Below, piece after piece: positions 11,158-16,403 of a stretch of 64,000 nucleotides of DNA. The notes beneath the pieces were generated by a model that worked only from the letters and a program-made list of their open reading frames with translations, was not told the DNA's origin and made no database searches. Origin of the DNA: Ensifer adhaerens (GTDB taxonomy: Bacteria; Pseudomonadota; Alphaproteobacteria; Rhizobiales; Rhizobiaceae). The stretch's first letter is position 1, and each line of letters begins with the position of its first letter. Location: contig NZ_LAZS01000005.1 in NCBI RefSeq assembly GCF_002007205.1, positions 310,001 through 374,000 of the forward strand. Direction: 5' to 3'. A program made the position numbers and the translations under genes.

Positions 11158-11202
11158 GAATTGTCGAGGCGCAGACTGTGTCCATGGTTAAACGAAACAT
11201 GG

Positions 11203-11427
11203 ATGTTCGACATGATCCGGGAACTCGGTCTCTATCTCGTCGCCTCGCCGCGCTCGCGGTACTGGCAGTTGCAGCAGCTGCGCGAACTCGATGCGGAGCA
11301 CCTGGCCGATATCGGCGTGACCTCCGGAGAGGCTGCGCTTGGAAGGCGCAGGGCCGCGCCGCTTCCGGCGCGCGAGGACAGGGCCGCCGTACGGCATGCC
11401 GAAGCCGCGCGGGCAGGGGCGATGTGA
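11203..11427 (+). CDS. DUF1127 (YjiS-like) small protein
   Basis: The start MFDMIRELGLYL at 11203 gives 74 residues. The core R-S-R-Y-W-Q-L-Q-Q-L-R-E-L-D-A-E-H-L-A-D-I-G matches the DUF1127 pattern R-x-L-x-x-L-D-x-x-x-L-x-D-[IL]-G, and the tail is Arg/Ala-rich. Arg-rich DUF1127 proteins are abundant in alphaproteobacteria; some bind RNA and influence phosphate, carbon or small-RNA metabolism. Divergence from a LysR regulator suggests dedicated control. The tail after residue 45 is longer than in the minimal family members. Confidence 0.85.
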   Translation: MFDMIRELGLYLVASPRSRYWQLQQLRELDAEHLADIGVTSGEAALGRRRAAPLPAREDRAAVRHAEAARAGAM

Positions 11428-11452: not shown

Positions 11453-12046
11453 CTACAGGTCCCAGCTCTCGATCGTCAGGCCCGGCCAAAGGGCGCGCCA
11501 GCGATCGACCTTGCGCTCGTATATCTCGCGCGTGATCTGGCTTTTGTTGGGGCGCACCACGAGCGACAGGAGGTCGGCAAGGCCGAAAGGCGCGCAGATC
11601 TCGAGCCCGCAGATTTCTGGCCCGTCGCGGGACGGGCGTATGCCGATGGCGGTTGCCGTCGTCGGGAAAGTCGCGATCGCCGCCGGCGTCGAGACATAGG
11701 GGCTGATCGGACTGCCGAACTTCTCTTCGTACCAGAGGTGGACGCGCGCCTCGTTCTTGACGTCGATCCGCACGGGCAGGTCCACGAGCAGGCTTTTGAT
11801 CCGGGCTGCGTGCCGGGCTTCCGTCTCTTCGGAGAGGTCCTCGCCGTCGAAATAGACGATGTCGATGTCGCCGATGCCATGCGTCGGCGGCATTGCGAAC
11901 GCATGGTTCCAGACGCTCTGCGTGATTGCGCCGGCCGCAAGCCAGGCATCTGGCAGAGCCACCTCGTTCCAATGATCGAGGACCGGAGAAAGAAGCGGGC
12001 TTTTCCGGATGATCGCTTGCAATTCCATGTGCTGGTAGCGGGTCAA
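11453..12046 (-). CDS. Nucleotidyltransferase-like protein (DUF925 type)
   Basis: The frame gives 197 residues from MTRYQHMELQAI; MELQAIIRKS is an equally plausible start. It contains the nucleotidyltransferase core: a W-L-A-A-G-A-I-T-Q-S-V-W-N segment followed by G-I-G-D-I-D-I-V-Y-F-D, in which the aspartates match the G-[GS]-x-n-D-x-D metal site arrangement of DUF925-type proteins. The family is widespread but its target is unknown. It lies 51 bases after the S51-like peptidase gene on the same strand and may be co-transcribed. Confidence 0.75.
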   Translation of the reverse strand: MTRYQHMELQAIIRKSPLLSPVLDHWNEVALPDAWLAAGAITQSVWNHAFAMPPTHGIGDIDIVYFDGEDLSEETEARHAARIKSLLVDLPVRIDVKNEARVHLWYEEKFGSPISPYVSTPAAIATFPTTATAIGIRPSRDGPEICGLEICAPFGLADLLSLVVRPNKSQITREIYERKVDRWRALWPGLTIESWDL

Positions 12047-12097: not shown

Positions 12098-12796
12098 TCA
12101 CGCCTTGGATAACGAGAAGCCGTCAAGGTTGACGTCGTCCGGTGTCCGCACGGCGCCACCTGAGATCCACAGGGGCTCTCCAAAACACTCGATCCGCCCG
12201 CCCGAAACGACGATGCCGTCGCCATCGTTGCAGGCAAGGATCGGCCGCGAGGTCGACAGGCTGTAGCGCAGCAGTGCGGGCAGGTAGCTTTCGTCGTCGC
12301 CGAGATGCGGGAAGAATTCGAACGGCGTGAGGTCGAGTGCCGCGCCGTCTGTGATGTCCTCGGGCCGTTCACCGATGAAGAGCGCGTCGGTCGCGATCGT
12401 CGGGGCCATGAGAATGGCACCGGCGCTGACGCCGATGAGGACACCGCCGGAGAGCGCAAAATCGCGCAGCGGCGCGCGCATGCCGCTGCGCTTCAGCCGT
12501 TCGAGAAAGCCGCCGGTGTGGCCGCCCGAGAGGTGGATGGCGTCCGAGGCGAAGAGGGCGGCGACCGCTTCTTCAGGATGCGGTTCGTCGAGATCGAAGA
12601 ACAGGCCGAGGTCGAGGCCGTAACGACCATAATAGGACCGGGCAGCGAGGAAGAAGCTGCGGTCCGGCTCCGGGCCGGAGGCCACATAGGCGATGCGGTT
12701 TCCGCCGCCGCGTGCCCTCAGCATCTCCGCGAGCCTCTGATCGATCGCCGAGCAGTCGGGGACAAGCTGGTCACTGTAGAGGATTAGGTTGAGCAT
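12098..12796 (-). CDS. Peptidase S51 (dipeptidase E)-like protein
   Basis: The protein has 232 residues and the type 1 glutamine amidotransferase-like fold of peptidase E. The nucleophile elbow G-V-S-A-G-A-I-L carries the expected catalytic serine, and an upstream A-I-H-L-S-G-G-H-T-G-G-F-L matches the substrate-loop region. Classical members cleave Asp-Xaa dipeptides or process cyanophycin fragments. At the genome level it is preceded by a small membrane-protein gene 42 bases away and followed by the nucleotidyltransferase gene, so the three could form one transcript. Confidence 0.8.
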   Translation of the reverse strand: MLNLILYSDQLVPDCSAIDQRLAEMLRARGGGNRIAYVASGPEPDRSFFLAARSYYGRYGLDLGLFFDLDEPHPEEAVAALFASDAIHLSGGHTGGFLERLKRSGMRAPLRDFALSGGVLIGVSAGAILMAPTIATDALFIGERPEDITDGAALDLTPFEFFPHLGDDESYLPALLRYSLSTSRPILACNDGDGIVVSGGRIECFGEPLWISGGAVRTPDDVNLDGFSLSKA

Positions 12797-12838: not shown

Positions 12839-13246
12839 TCAGCTTGACGAAGGATGCTGCTTCACGCGGGCGGCATAGCGCCAGACGCCAAGCCAGCCAT
12901 AATAGGCAAGTGCCAAGGAGGCGGCATAGAGTGCCGCCATGGCGGCCAGTTCACTCCACGCAGAGTTGGCGACGCCGAGGGACAGGTCCATCCAGGCCGC
13001 GCCGACGAGATAGAGAGCGGTCCAGAAGGTCAGGATTTTTGCGAAAGGTGGCCAGAAGGCCGTTGGCAGAAGGTCTTTGTCAAAGGCGTAGCAGACGATG
13101 CCGATGGATGCCGGCACCGATATGACCAGGCTGATCAGGTCCATTACGTTGATTTCGCCTGGGGCCTGTTCGGAAACAATGAGCGCGAACCAAATGAAGG
13201 CGGCTATGGTCAGCCCGCATGTCAGAACAGCAAAGATCTTCCACAT
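12839..13246 (-). CDS. Small four-helix membrane protein, array member 1
   Basis: ATG at 13246 begins MWKIFAVLTCGL; a TTG two codons earlier is better spaced from AGGAG but the MWK start is conserved in both sisters. The 135-residue protein has four hydrophobic segments, a central Y-A-F-D followed by F-W-P-P-F, and ends Y-G-W-L-G-V-W-R-Y-A-A-R. It is the most divergent of three tandem paralogues (with 13376-13771 and 13933-14358). No family was recognised. Its upstream region is interrupted by a RIME fragment where the sisters share a promoter-like stretch. Confidence 0.8.
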   Translation of the reverse strand: MWKIFAVLTCGLTIAAFIWFALIVSEQAPGEINVMDLISLVISVPASIGIVCYAFDKDLLPTAFWPPFAKILTFWTALYLVGAAWMDLSLGVANSAWSELAAMAALYAASLALAYYGWLGVWRYAARVKQHPSSS

Positions 13247-13273
13247 CGGCAATCATATCTCCTGGCAGCAGAG

Positions 13274-13291
13274 TGCCAAACTGGGTGGGTG
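13274..13291 (-). promoter_or_regulatory. Shared leader motif, copy 1
   Basis: Read on the minus strand this is CACCCACCCAGTTTGGCA. Related sequences CACCACCCAAGCTGGCA and CACGACCCAAGATGGCA precede the two paralogous genes at comparable distance from their MWK start codons. It is either a regulatory site or a remnant of the duplicated unit. Confidence 0.55.
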
Positions 13292-13304
13292 CACCTCGTC
13301 GACG

Positions 13305-13352
13305 CTAGAGCATCCTGCCTTCAAGTGGAATCACTTGCGGGCGGAAAGATGC
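13305..13352. repeat. RIME palindrome, partial copy (first arm only)
   Basis: CTAGAGCATCCTGCCTTCAA onwards matches the first palindrome of the complete elements at 48488 and 50718 almost base for base, but the second palindrome (AGAGCGTCCTTTGTGCG) is missing. RIMEs are intergenic palindromic elements described in Rhizobium and Sinorhizobium. The copy occupies the presumed promoter region of array member 1. Confidence 0.8.
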
Positions 13353-13375
13353 CCCATGAATGAACCCAAGGCGAA

Positions 13376-13771
13376 CTATGCGGTGGCCTTCATCCGGCGG
13401 CCGTAACGCCAGACGCCGAGCCAGCTGAAATAATTGACGAGGAGAGACAGAGAAAGCCAGAGCAGGGTGACGAGATCATCGCCCCCTTCGTACTGAGCGG
13501 CAAACCGCACCACGCTGATGACCGACAGGGCGCCGAGCAGGATGCCGAGAAACCAGCTATACGGCCGCCAGAGCCCGAAGGGCGGGACGTGCAGGTTGAA
13601 GGCATAGGCAACAAGGCCGATCGCCGTTGCCAGCGCCATGACCAGGCTGACGCTGCCGAGGATCTTGATCCCGTATGCCATCTCGTCCCACAAGCCCAGG
13701 AGCAGCGTCGCGCCTATGACCAGGCCGAAAGCAAGGCTGAGCACGTAGAAAATTGCGAATGCCTTCCACAT
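13376..13771 (-). CDS. Small four-helix membrane protein, array member 2
   Basis: The 131-residue protein starts MWKAFAIFYVLSLAFG and has four hydrophobic helices. It carries the family marks I-G-L-V-A-Y-A-F-N, then L-W-R-P-Y-S-W, and the C-terminal N-Y-F-S-W-L-G-V-W-R-Y-G-R-R. The C-terminal block is nearly identical to array member 3. Gene, 5' leader motif (13798-13814) and promoter-like stretch are all repeated, so this looks like duplication of a whole transcription unit. No known family was recognised; the positive C-terminus suggests an inside orientation of the tail. Confidence 0.85.
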   Translation of the reverse strand: MWKAFAIFYVLSLAFGLVIGATLLLGLWDEMAYGIKILGSVSLVMALATAIGLVAYAFNLHVPPFGLWRPYSWFLGILLGALSVISVVRFAAQYEGGDDLVTLLWLSLSLLVNYFSWLGVWRYGRRMKATA

Positions 13772-13797
13772 CGCGAATCATCCTGTATCTGCGCTGG

Positions 13798-13814
13798 TGC
13801 CAGCTTGGGTGGTG
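13798..13814 (-). promoter_or_regulatory. Shared leader motif, copy 2
   Basis: Minus-strand CACCACCCAAGCTGGCA, 26 bases upstream of the ATG of array member 2. The sequence upstream (…CGATAGACAAGG) also matches copy 3 (…GGTAGACAAGT), defining a conserved promoter-like block. Confidence 0.55.
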
Positions 13815-13932
13815 AAGAGCGCCTTGTCTATCGTTCTACGGGCGAGATGGTCGCAAGGCCTTACACCCGGCCTGCATGCCGCCGGCTGTCGCATTCGTTC
13901 CCCGGAGTGCGTGGCGTGCCGGCGTTCCACCC

Positions 13933-14358
13933 TTAGCCAGTGGGGGCCGGCTGCTGCTCTGTTCGGCGGCCATAACGCCAGACGCCGAGCCAGGCGAAAT
14001 AGTTGAGAAGAAGCAGGAGCAGCAGGCCGAAGACGGCTGACACCAAGCCTTCGTCTCCGGGTTTCGGGCTGGTGATGAGCATGGCGACGTCCCAGGCCTT
14101 GTCCAGCGACGTGTAGAGACACCAGCCTGCAAGAGCCCAGCTGAATGGCCGCCAAAATGACGAGGGCGGGACTCTCAGGTCGAAGGCGTAGGCAAAGACG
14201 CCTATCATGGCCGCAAATTCCACGGCCAGGCCCGCATAGAACAGGGCTCGGTCGGCGGAAGACAGCTGCACCGCGATTTCAGGGGACAGCGTGACGAAAG
14301 CCAATGACAGCCCGAAAATGAAAATCAGCCCGTAGAGAACGGCAAACGCCTTCCACAT
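13933..14358 (-). CDS. Small four-helix membrane protein, array member 3
   Basis: The 141-residue protein starts MWKAFAVLYGLIFIFG and has four hydrophobic segments. It repeats the array marks: I-G-V-F-A-Y-A-F-D, then S-F-W-R-P-F-S-W, and N-Y-F-A-W-L-G-V-W-R-Y-G-R-R near the end. A variable polar loop (about residues 85-105, with SPKPGDEG) separates helices three and four. It is the 5'-most member in transcription order and its promoter region holds a perfect 12-bp palindrome. It lies downstream of macB on the same strand, 92 bases away. Confidence 0.85.
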   Translation of the reverse strand: MWKAFAVLYGLIFIFGLSLAFVTLSPEIAVQLSSADRALFYAGLAVEFAAMIGVFAYAFDLRVPPSSFWRPFSWALAGWCLYTSLDKAWDVAMLITSPKPGDEGLVSAVFGLLLLLLLNYFAWLGVWRYGRRTEQQPAPTG

Positions 14359-14387
14359 CGCGAATCGTCCCCCAAGCGTGCAGTGCC

Positions 14388-14413
14388 TGCCATCTTGGGT
14401 CGTGTCGCGACAC
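14388..14413 (-). promoter_or_regulatory. Shared leader motif, copy 3, with adjoining palindrome
   Basis: Minus-strand CACGACCCAAGATGGCA occupies 14388-14404. It overlaps GTGTCGCGACAC (14402-14413), a perfect 12-bp palindrome that the other two copies do not keep in full. This combination is a reasonable operator candidate for array member 3. Confidence 0.5.
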
Positions 14414-14450
14414 TTGTCTACCGTCTGGCGGGCAGGAGCGTCGCTCTTGC

Positions 14451-16403
14451 CTAGTCCGCGCTCAGCGCCACCGCCGGCTGCAGTCGCGAGGCGTTGCGGG
14501 CGGGGAGGAAGCCGAAGATGAGGCCGGTCAGGAAGGCGCAGGCAAAGGCGAGCGCGACGGGGCCGATGGTGAAGGAGACCGGCATGCCGAACTGACCGGC
14601 GAGCGCCCCGGTGCCGAGCCCGAGCGCGACGCCGAGCGTGCCGCCGATCGCCGAGACGACCAGCGCCTCGATGATGAACTGCAGCAGGATGTCGCGCTGG
14701 CGGGCGCCGGTCGCCATGCGTACGCCGATCTCGCGGGTGCGCTCGCTGACCGAAACCAGCATGATGTTCATGACGCCGATGCCGCCGACCAAGAGCGAGA
14801 TCGCGGCGACCGAGGCGAGGAACAGTTTCAGCGTGTTCGAGGTCTCGGTGAAGGCCTCGCGCACGGACGACATGTTGGTGATCTGCGTGTCCTGGCGCTT
14901 GTGGCGCTGGTCGAGCAGCGACTGGATCGTCTGCTGGGTGATGTCGATCGCCGAGCCGTCCTTCACCTGGACGGTGATGGTGCGGATGTTGCGCTGGCCG
15001 AAGAGGCGGATGCTGCCGGTCGAAAGCGGCACCAGCACCACGTCGTCCTGGTCGTTGCCGAAGGAGGTGGCGCCCATCTCCGCCATCACGCCGATCACCT
15101 GGAAGGGGATCTTGTTGACGAGCACATATTGGCCGATCGGATTGTTGCCGTCGGGAAAGAGGGTCTTCACCACCGTCTGGCCGAGCACGGCCACCGGTGC
15201 GTAGGTGTCCATGTCGTTCTGGTTGATGAACTCGCCCTTGGCCATCTTCCAGGATTTTGCCGTGGTGAACTGCGGCACGGTGCCGTTGGCGGTCGTCTGA
15301 TAATCGACATTGCCGCGGCGAAGCGTGACGGAGCTGGTCATCTCCGGCACGGCGAAGGCGACATTCGGCACTTCGAGGATCGCGTCGGCGTCCGCAGGCA
15401 CCAGCGTCACGTTGCTGCCGCCGGCGCTGCCGCGGAAATTCGCCATGCTCGGGCGTACCACCAAGAGGTCGGAGCCCATGGAGGAGATGCGGCTCAAGAC
15501 CGAATCCTGCGCGCCCGTGCCGATCGCCAGCATGGCGACGACCGAACCGACGCCGATGACGATGCCGAGCAGGGTCAGGATCGTGCGGAACAGATTGGCC
15601 TTCAGCGCCCGGAACGCCATCTTCATCGCTTCGGTGACATCGGCGATCGCGGCCGAGCCTTCGCTGACATGGCGGGCGAGGGCGGCTGCCCCCTCGGCAT
15701 TCACACGGGTTTTCTTGGCACGGTCGGCGACGATGCGGCCGTCATGGATCTCGATCAGCCGGTCGGCCTGTTCGGCGACCTCGCGCGAGTGGGTGATGAC
15801 GATGACCGTGTGACCCTGCTGGTTCATGTCGCGGAGCAGCGCCATCACGTCCGAGCCGCTCTGGCTGTCAAGCGCGCCGGTCGGCTCGTCGGCAAGGATC
15901 ACCCGGCCGCCGTTCATCAGCGCGCGGGCAATGGAGACGCGTTGCTGCTGGCCGCCAGACAACTGGCCCGGCCGGTGGTCGAGGCGCTCGCCGAGCTTCA
16001 GCGCTTCCAACAGCGCCTCGGCGCGGTCGTGGCGGTCGCGGGCCGACATGCCGGCATAGACGGCCGGCACCTCGACATTTTCCTTGGCGCTTGCTGTCGG
16101 GATGAGGTTGTAGCTCTGGAAGACGAAGCCGAAGGTGCGGCGGCGCAGCGCCGCGAGCTCGTCGCTGTCGAGGGTAGCGACGCTCTCGCCGTCGATCAGG
16201 TAGTCGCCGCCGGTCGGCTGGTCGAGGCAGCCGAGAATGTTCATCAGCGTCGACTTGCCGGAACCCGACTGGCCGACGATCGCCACGAATTCGCCCGCCT
16301 CGATATCGAGCGACAGGCCATGCAGCACCTCGACGGCGAGATCGCCGTTGAAATAGGTCTTGCTGACGTGCCTGAGCGAGAGAAGCGGGGTCATGGCCGA
16401 CAT
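14451..16403 (-). CDS. macB: MacB-type ABC transporter (ATPase-permease fusion)
   Basis: The 650-residue protein has an N-terminal ABC ATPase: Walker [10 protein letters not shown] (residues 44-52), signature L-S-G-G-Q-Q-Q-R, Walker [13 protein letters not shown] and the H-loop I-T-H-S. The C-terminal part is a MacB/FtsX permease with one helix after the ATPase, a large periplasmic domain, and three final helices (including the [20 protein letters not shown] motif). It works with MacA and an outer-membrane TolC-like channel to export macrolides, lipopeptides or virulence-type molecules. Its ATG shares one base with the macA stop (TGATG), showing translational coupling. Confidence 0.93.

Follow-up and report, generated by a model that had tools for sequence, protein, structure and literature searches.

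A tandem array of three small, paralogous membrane protein genes, P1, P2 and P3, lies between a macB-like exporter gene and a pepE-like peptidase gene in the 64,000-nucleotide stretch of Ensifer adhaerens DNA analysed here (the window; Table 1). The interval between these two neighbours was seen in all 16 genomes of the genus and carries between zero and three intact copies of the family. The array is real and mostly as a preliminary description had it, but it is ordinary in kind: bacteria not uncommonly carry tandem arrays of small membrane proteins confined to one lineage, and an array as such is unsurprising. That description did not see that the place between macB and pepE is fixed, that copy number varies, that distant relatives exist and that conservation of the proteins is polarised. 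The protein family defined here has no model in the libraries searched, its conservation is clearly polarised, and its natural variation in copy number at a single syntenic place makes its function testable by comparison of sister strains.

Table 1. Features of the array and its immediate neighbours, in window coordinates.
Feature	Position	Strand	Remark
P1, first array gene, predicted four-helix membrane protein	13933..14358	-	ORF, 141 aa
P2, paralogue	13376..13771	-	ORF, 131 aa
P3, paralogue, most diverged clade	12839..13246	-	ORF, 135 aa
P1 leader, box A (TAGACAA) and box B (CACGACCCAAGATGGCA)	14388..14420	-	register TAGACA-N17-CAAGAT promoter-like
P1 box C, CGATTCGCG, immediately 5' of ATG	14359..14367	-	
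P2 leader, boxes A and B (CACCACCCAAGCTGGCA)	13798..13830	-	
P2 box C, TGATTCGCG, 5' of ATG	13772..13780	-	
P3 leader, degenerate box B core ACCCAGTTTGGCA	13274..13286	-	2 mismatches
P3 box C, TGATTGCCG, 5' of ATG	13247..13255	-	
macB-like ABC exporter gene (context)	14451..16403	-	constant upstream neighbour
pepE-like peptidase gene (context)	12098..12796	-	constant downstream neighbour

The three minus-strand genes, encoding proteins of 131 to 141 residues, had been described as related, and they are indeed paralogues: P1 and P2 are identical at 53 of 131 aligned residues, P1 and P3 at 44 of 133, and P2 and P3 at 39 of 124 (31-40% across the three pairs). All three open with MWK, share YAF and carry an invariant WLGVWRY near the C-terminus, just as had been claimed for the start and the near-identical end. 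For P3 a TTG two codons upstream is also possible, the conserved start being the MWK ATG at 13246. The similarity might have been no better than that among unrelated four-helix proteins. When P1 was used as a query against its own 6.87-Mb genome, however, P2 and P3 were recovered with E values of 1.1e-19 and 2.9e-13 whereas the next match had an E value of 0.845, and this large gap marks homology rather than shared hydrophobicity.

The preliminary description recognised no known family, and library searches agree with it. P1-P3 drew only weak, mutually unrelated matches or none from Pfam, NCBIfam and PHROGs; 20 members searched against Pfam and NCBIfam gave no fitting family, 15 members searched against PADLOC and Pfam gave none either, and the PDB sequences held no convincing match to a 15-row profile. 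The best library match, MAB_1171c (E 0.0022, 17.1 bits against a cut-off of 100, in two of the 20 members), is taken as hydrophobic chance. Small multidrug resistance (SMR) transporters were likewise rejected, as QacCGHJ alone matched a single member (E 0.3, 11.4 bits against a cut-off of 160). The literature search made for tandem-duplicated small membrane proteins in Sinorhizobium found none, and the part of the literature consulted for Ensifer adhaerens MacB or ABC transporters offered a Blastomonas paper alone.

A synteny comparison, proposed in the preliminary description, was run across the 16 genus genomes and revealed a fixed macB-pepE place with variable copy number. A profile built from P1-P3 matched 14 of these genomes (named species include Ensifer adhaerens, E. 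sesbaniae and E. oleiphilus), and in all 14, the window and 13 relatives, the family's genes sit between macB and the pepE-like gene. The genus total is 23 intact and two broken copies; at this one chromosomal place the family has been duplicated and lost repeatedly. Three intact copies are present in G000, G003, G005 and G014, two in G001 and G009 (the latter with a broken P1 in addition), and one in G002, G004, G007, G008, G012, G013 and G015; G010 has a broken P1 only. G006 and G011 have no family copy at all; both retain macA, macB (92 and 96% identity) and pepE, and the space between macB and pepE is taken up by unrelated ORFs.

The interval itself is a variable slot (L061:7193-7885; L062:10569-11183; L048:9792-10474), the unrelated ORFs in G011 and G006 having no accepted Pfam family. 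Pieces resembling the G011 ORF, by eye, come after the single copy in G004. In G005 the first two copies are separated by a transposase gene (L043:8650-9768), which its sequence features mark as IS110-like; a toxin was considered for this insert and rejected on the same identification.

Outside Ensifer, other Rhizobiaceae carry diverged relatives as single copies. Searches at the level of the family, order and phylum with Ensifer-only profiles accepted no member beyond the genus. A tblastn search of plasmids gave a marginal match (E 0.06) in Rhizobium sp. CB3171, and the protein found there reaches 38 bits against the Ensifer-only profile. It contains MLWKLLAV, YVFKF, WRGFAW and WLAIWRYG, and links to a shorter R. 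acidisoli protein encoded beside thiamine genes. Once the profile was extended with these two proteins, a search of 394 genomes recovered members in three further genera, represented by G269 (E 1.4e-9), G142 (E 7.3e-7) and G1130 (E 3.5e-5). The Ensifer-only profile scores them at 30.4, 27.9 and 12.8 bits, respectively, and the R. acidisoli protein at 12.5 bits; G1130 is thus the least certain of the three, and both it and R. acidisoli owe their membership to linking sequences and have some of the marks altered. A 67% relative of the G269 protein is found on pNGR234b of S. fredii NGR234.

Defined by a profile match together with the WK, YAF and W(R)Y marks, this Rhizobiaceae "WKxFA...YAF...WRY" family includes the window proteins. 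Like those of the array, its members have a core of about 120-135 residues with a hydrophobic pattern and, in most, an N-terminal WK, a YAF and a C-terminal W(R/Q)Y. Unlike the array, members outside the genus are single copies at other loci without the macB-pepE context, and in the six upstream regions tested box B, the leader element treated below, did not exceed shuffles. Two outside proteins also depart from the array at the C-terminus: that of CB3171 (L071:3893-4666) is extended there, with additional hydrophobic stretches in the extension, and that of G142 diverges from the family. The CB3171 replicon encodes another relative about 16 kb from this protein. The neighbours of the outside members differ, with a DUF4419 gene among them and others that, by their sequence features, are cckA-like, recA-like, leuC-like and thi genes and an ABC-transporter ATPase gene. 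Across seven outside loci (8-35 kb) macA had no match, and macB matched nothing but that ABC-transporter ATPase of the S. fredii locus, which is a lone ATPase domain.

These distributions bear on a rival reading of the locus, namely that the array supplies the adjacent MacAB-type exporter with accessory subunits or modulators, which might for example alter the range of its substrates, and is transcribed together with macAB. The first array gene follows the macB stop on the same strand by 79-92 bases in 14 of 14 genomes, and a constant macB neighbour in Ensifer is equally expected of a MacAB partner. However, the gap to macB contains the array's own conserved leader, full-length macA and macB persist without an intact family copy in three of the 16 genomes (G006, G010 and G011), and the seven distant-member loci are without macA or a full macB. 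Moreover, when 11 MacB loci from other genera (three at 67-72% identity and eight at 44-47%) were searched over 1.5 kb on each side, no family member came to light (tblastn, E 0.01). Among exporter models, MacA and MacB included, none came near its cut-off across 20 members, and co-occurrence with MacAB is not constant. The genomes that keep macAB without an intact copy, the distant members without macAB neighbours and the MacB loci without the family thus argue that these proteins are not obligatory MacAB subunits, and I consider a role as exporter accessories unlikely.

The four helices named in the preliminary description are predicted well for P1, for which AlphaFold gives a four-helix bundle (pLDDT 87.5), and moderately for P3 (pLDDT 74.3), these being the two single chains modelled. 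The P1 model had no significant structural match. Its best VIA-align row was the Fc-epsilon-RI beta chain, an animal four-helix membrane protein (Foldseek E 0.4), where the VIA-align Z may mean merely a common helix arrangement; DsbB, VKOR and DGK were the other folds considered for likeness. The predicted topology has both ends inside, with a net charge of +3 to +7 on the predicted cytoplasmic segments and of 0 to -5 on the periplasmic ones in all 23 intact proteins. On this topology the cytoplasmic half would be the conserved one and the periplasmic half the variable one: mean column entropy, with gaps counted as a state, is 0.62-1.37 on the cytoplasmic side (the C-tail apart) versus 1.61-2.23 on the periplasmic side. 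The C-tail (132-141) falls on the cytoplasmic side yet is variable (entropy 1.85). Columns conserved in at least 90% of 15 sequences, far members included, are W2, A6, A58 and W125, all of them on the cytoplasmic side.

A small membrane protein with a variable outer half could also serve in defence. Pore-forming colicin immunity proteins are small polytopic inner-membrane proteins of similar size with three to four helices, a build predicted for P1 and P3 as well. By analogy, the array could be a diversifying repertoire of membrane immunity or self-protection proteins directed against the membrane-active toxins or peptides of competitors. Size, the predicted four helices, tandem paralogues, gain and loss of copies and the diversified periplasmic half are all consistent with this, and a distant member lies near the DUF4419 gene on a Rhizobium megaplasmid, which is not direct evidence. 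Unlike the colicin immunity proteins, however, the array has no recognised toxin partner among the Ensifer neighbours viewed (macAB, pepE and the IS110-like insert); the 15 members searched against PADLOC gave nothing better than E 0.68, and immunity families are absent among the Pfam and NCBIfam matches. Immunity in this general sense seems distinctly improbable. There is a slimmer chance still that this is an unnamed rhizobial self-protection family of the membrane, with a conserved cytoplasmic platform, outer faces diversified between tandem copies and, for most copies, an own duplicated promoter; if so, Ensifer would hold a genus-wide repertoire locus behind macAB against competitors' membrane-active compounds.

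A tree of the 23 intact proteins resolves five groups: P0, P1, P2, P3 and one of single copies. Two single copies fall elsewhere, that of G012 with P2 and that of G008 with P3; support is weak for many inner forks (of 20, six are starred and 11 open). Selection on the family is purifying. The dN/dS ratio is 0.16-0.52 in the 14 within-clade pairs with a defined value, the 15th pair (G000_1/G003_1) having three replacement and zero synonymous differences, and it is 0.51 for one P1/P2 paralogue pair. Between P1 and P2 the C-terminus has a pS of 0.56 versus 0.59-0.67 elsewhere in the gene, and a pN of 0.25 versus 0.49 in the middle. Since synonymous differences are high and roughly even along the gene, the duplication is old and it is selection that has kept the ends alike. 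Gene conversion of those ends is not supported for this pair, the C-terminal pS being about as high as in the rest of the gene.

These values also speak to the suggestion that the copies are orphan genes evolving almost neutrally, hydrophobic ORFs kept in existence by duplication with no function under selection. The restricted distribution, the two broken copies and the two genomes without any copy would fit such genes, but the dN/dS ratios of the 14 pairs and the conservation of the motifs despite high P1/P2 synonymous divergence do not, and neutrality is very unlikely.

Some exchange between copies or strains is conceivable elsewhere. In the P0/P1 pair of G014, pS is 0.25 and 0.34 at the ends versus 0.51 in the middle (few sites), so local exchange involving P0 may have occurred. 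The P1 of the window (13933-14358) and the P1 of G003 (L042:10472-10894) show zero synonymous difference, the dS of the corresponding P2 and P3 pairs being 0.28 and 0.20, a contrast that may reflect a recent exchange of the P1 end from strain to strain.

The preliminary description further held that a related leader precedes each gene and that whole units, control DNA included, were duplicated. This stands for P1 and P2: CACNACCCAAGNTGGCA occurs exactly 5' of P1 (14388-14404) and of P2 (13798-13814), and the similarity of the two leaders has a z of 5.4 against shuffles, versus 1.6 in the 60 bases further upstream. The motif also precedes P0 and the single-copy genes. For P3 the case is weak: in this genome the z values are 2.1 (P1/P3) and 2.8, and in G003 the P1/P3 pair has 0.9. 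The P3 core lies about as far from the ATG as in P1 and P2; matches of the ACCCAGTTTGGCA type, at up to two mismatches, are not rare (four in the window against 4.2 expected), so the P3 match is credible by its position alone.

Across 24 leaders (23 from intact copies, one from the G010 start), T[AG]GACAA, or box A, is present in 20. In the other four, P1 of G005 and G014 and P3 of G000 and G003, it is changed or missing. Box B follows the consensus C[AG]CCACCCAAGATGGCA and box C, abutting the ATG, that of P2 in Table 1, both with variation. Spacing between boxes A and B is constant in 20 leaders, bar one inserted base in G005_2; in this region of the alignment the leader of the window's P3 shows a gap of four bases. 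The P1 copies of G005 and G014 are without blocks A and B; not every copy therefore retains its own leader, and to this extent the whole-unit claim is overstated.

With up to three mismatches, the composite leader pattern occurs at three sites in its own genome, two in the array (P1 and P2) and one elsewhere with three mismatches; a regulon site was rejected. T[AG]GACA-N17-CAAGAT is plausible as a weak sigma-70 register. A generic promoter scan gave no P1 or P2 site and, for P3 only, the alternative register described below (one site, 0.3 expected). A structured RNA leader was rejected, as no consensus pair was predicted in 17 of 24 leaders folded, and so was a sigma-54 promoter, whose spacing misfits by eye when set against the -24/-12 consensus. 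No resemblance to ECF sigma motifs was noticed in text passages of PMC6180224, motif logos aside. An alternative register, running from TGGCA to the bases 5' of TCGCG, would give nearly leaderless transcripts, 171 of which are reported for S. meliloti in the part of PMC3616915 consulted.

At this point the reading I favour, if only tentatively, is that of an accessory inner-membrane family with its own leaders, dosed by copy number, whose cytoplasmic docking face is conserved and whose outer face has diversified. The array would be a tandem form of a small inner-membrane protein family of Rhizobiaceae, and each protein would be an antiparallel four-helix bundle with both ends cytoplasmic. Three stretches would make up the cytoplasmic face: MWK at the N-terminus, YAFxLxVPPxxFWRPFSW in the turn that joins helices 2 and 3, and WLGVWRYGRR where helix 4 ends. 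Together they would form a conserved Trp/Tyr/Arg/Pro platform, whose most likely role is to dock a partner or lipid interface that all copies share. Diversified between paralogues, the periplasmic half and the loops probably set the response or pairing of each copy. Each unit may have arisen with its own short promoter-like leader, so that each copy could be acquired, lost or adjusted in dose on its own within the macB-pepE slot, and the family would serve an accessory, dispensable envelope function.

Two further genes lie past pepE. A PF06042 nucleotidyltransferase-like gene (window 11456-12022, minus strand) is present in the seven genomes with an intact or broken P1 and was not found after pepE in the other nine loci. 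A small DUF1127-like gene (window 11164-11427, plus strand; E 3.4e-4, below the Pfam cut-off) lies beside a LysR gene and was found in 13 of the 15 genus loci examined.
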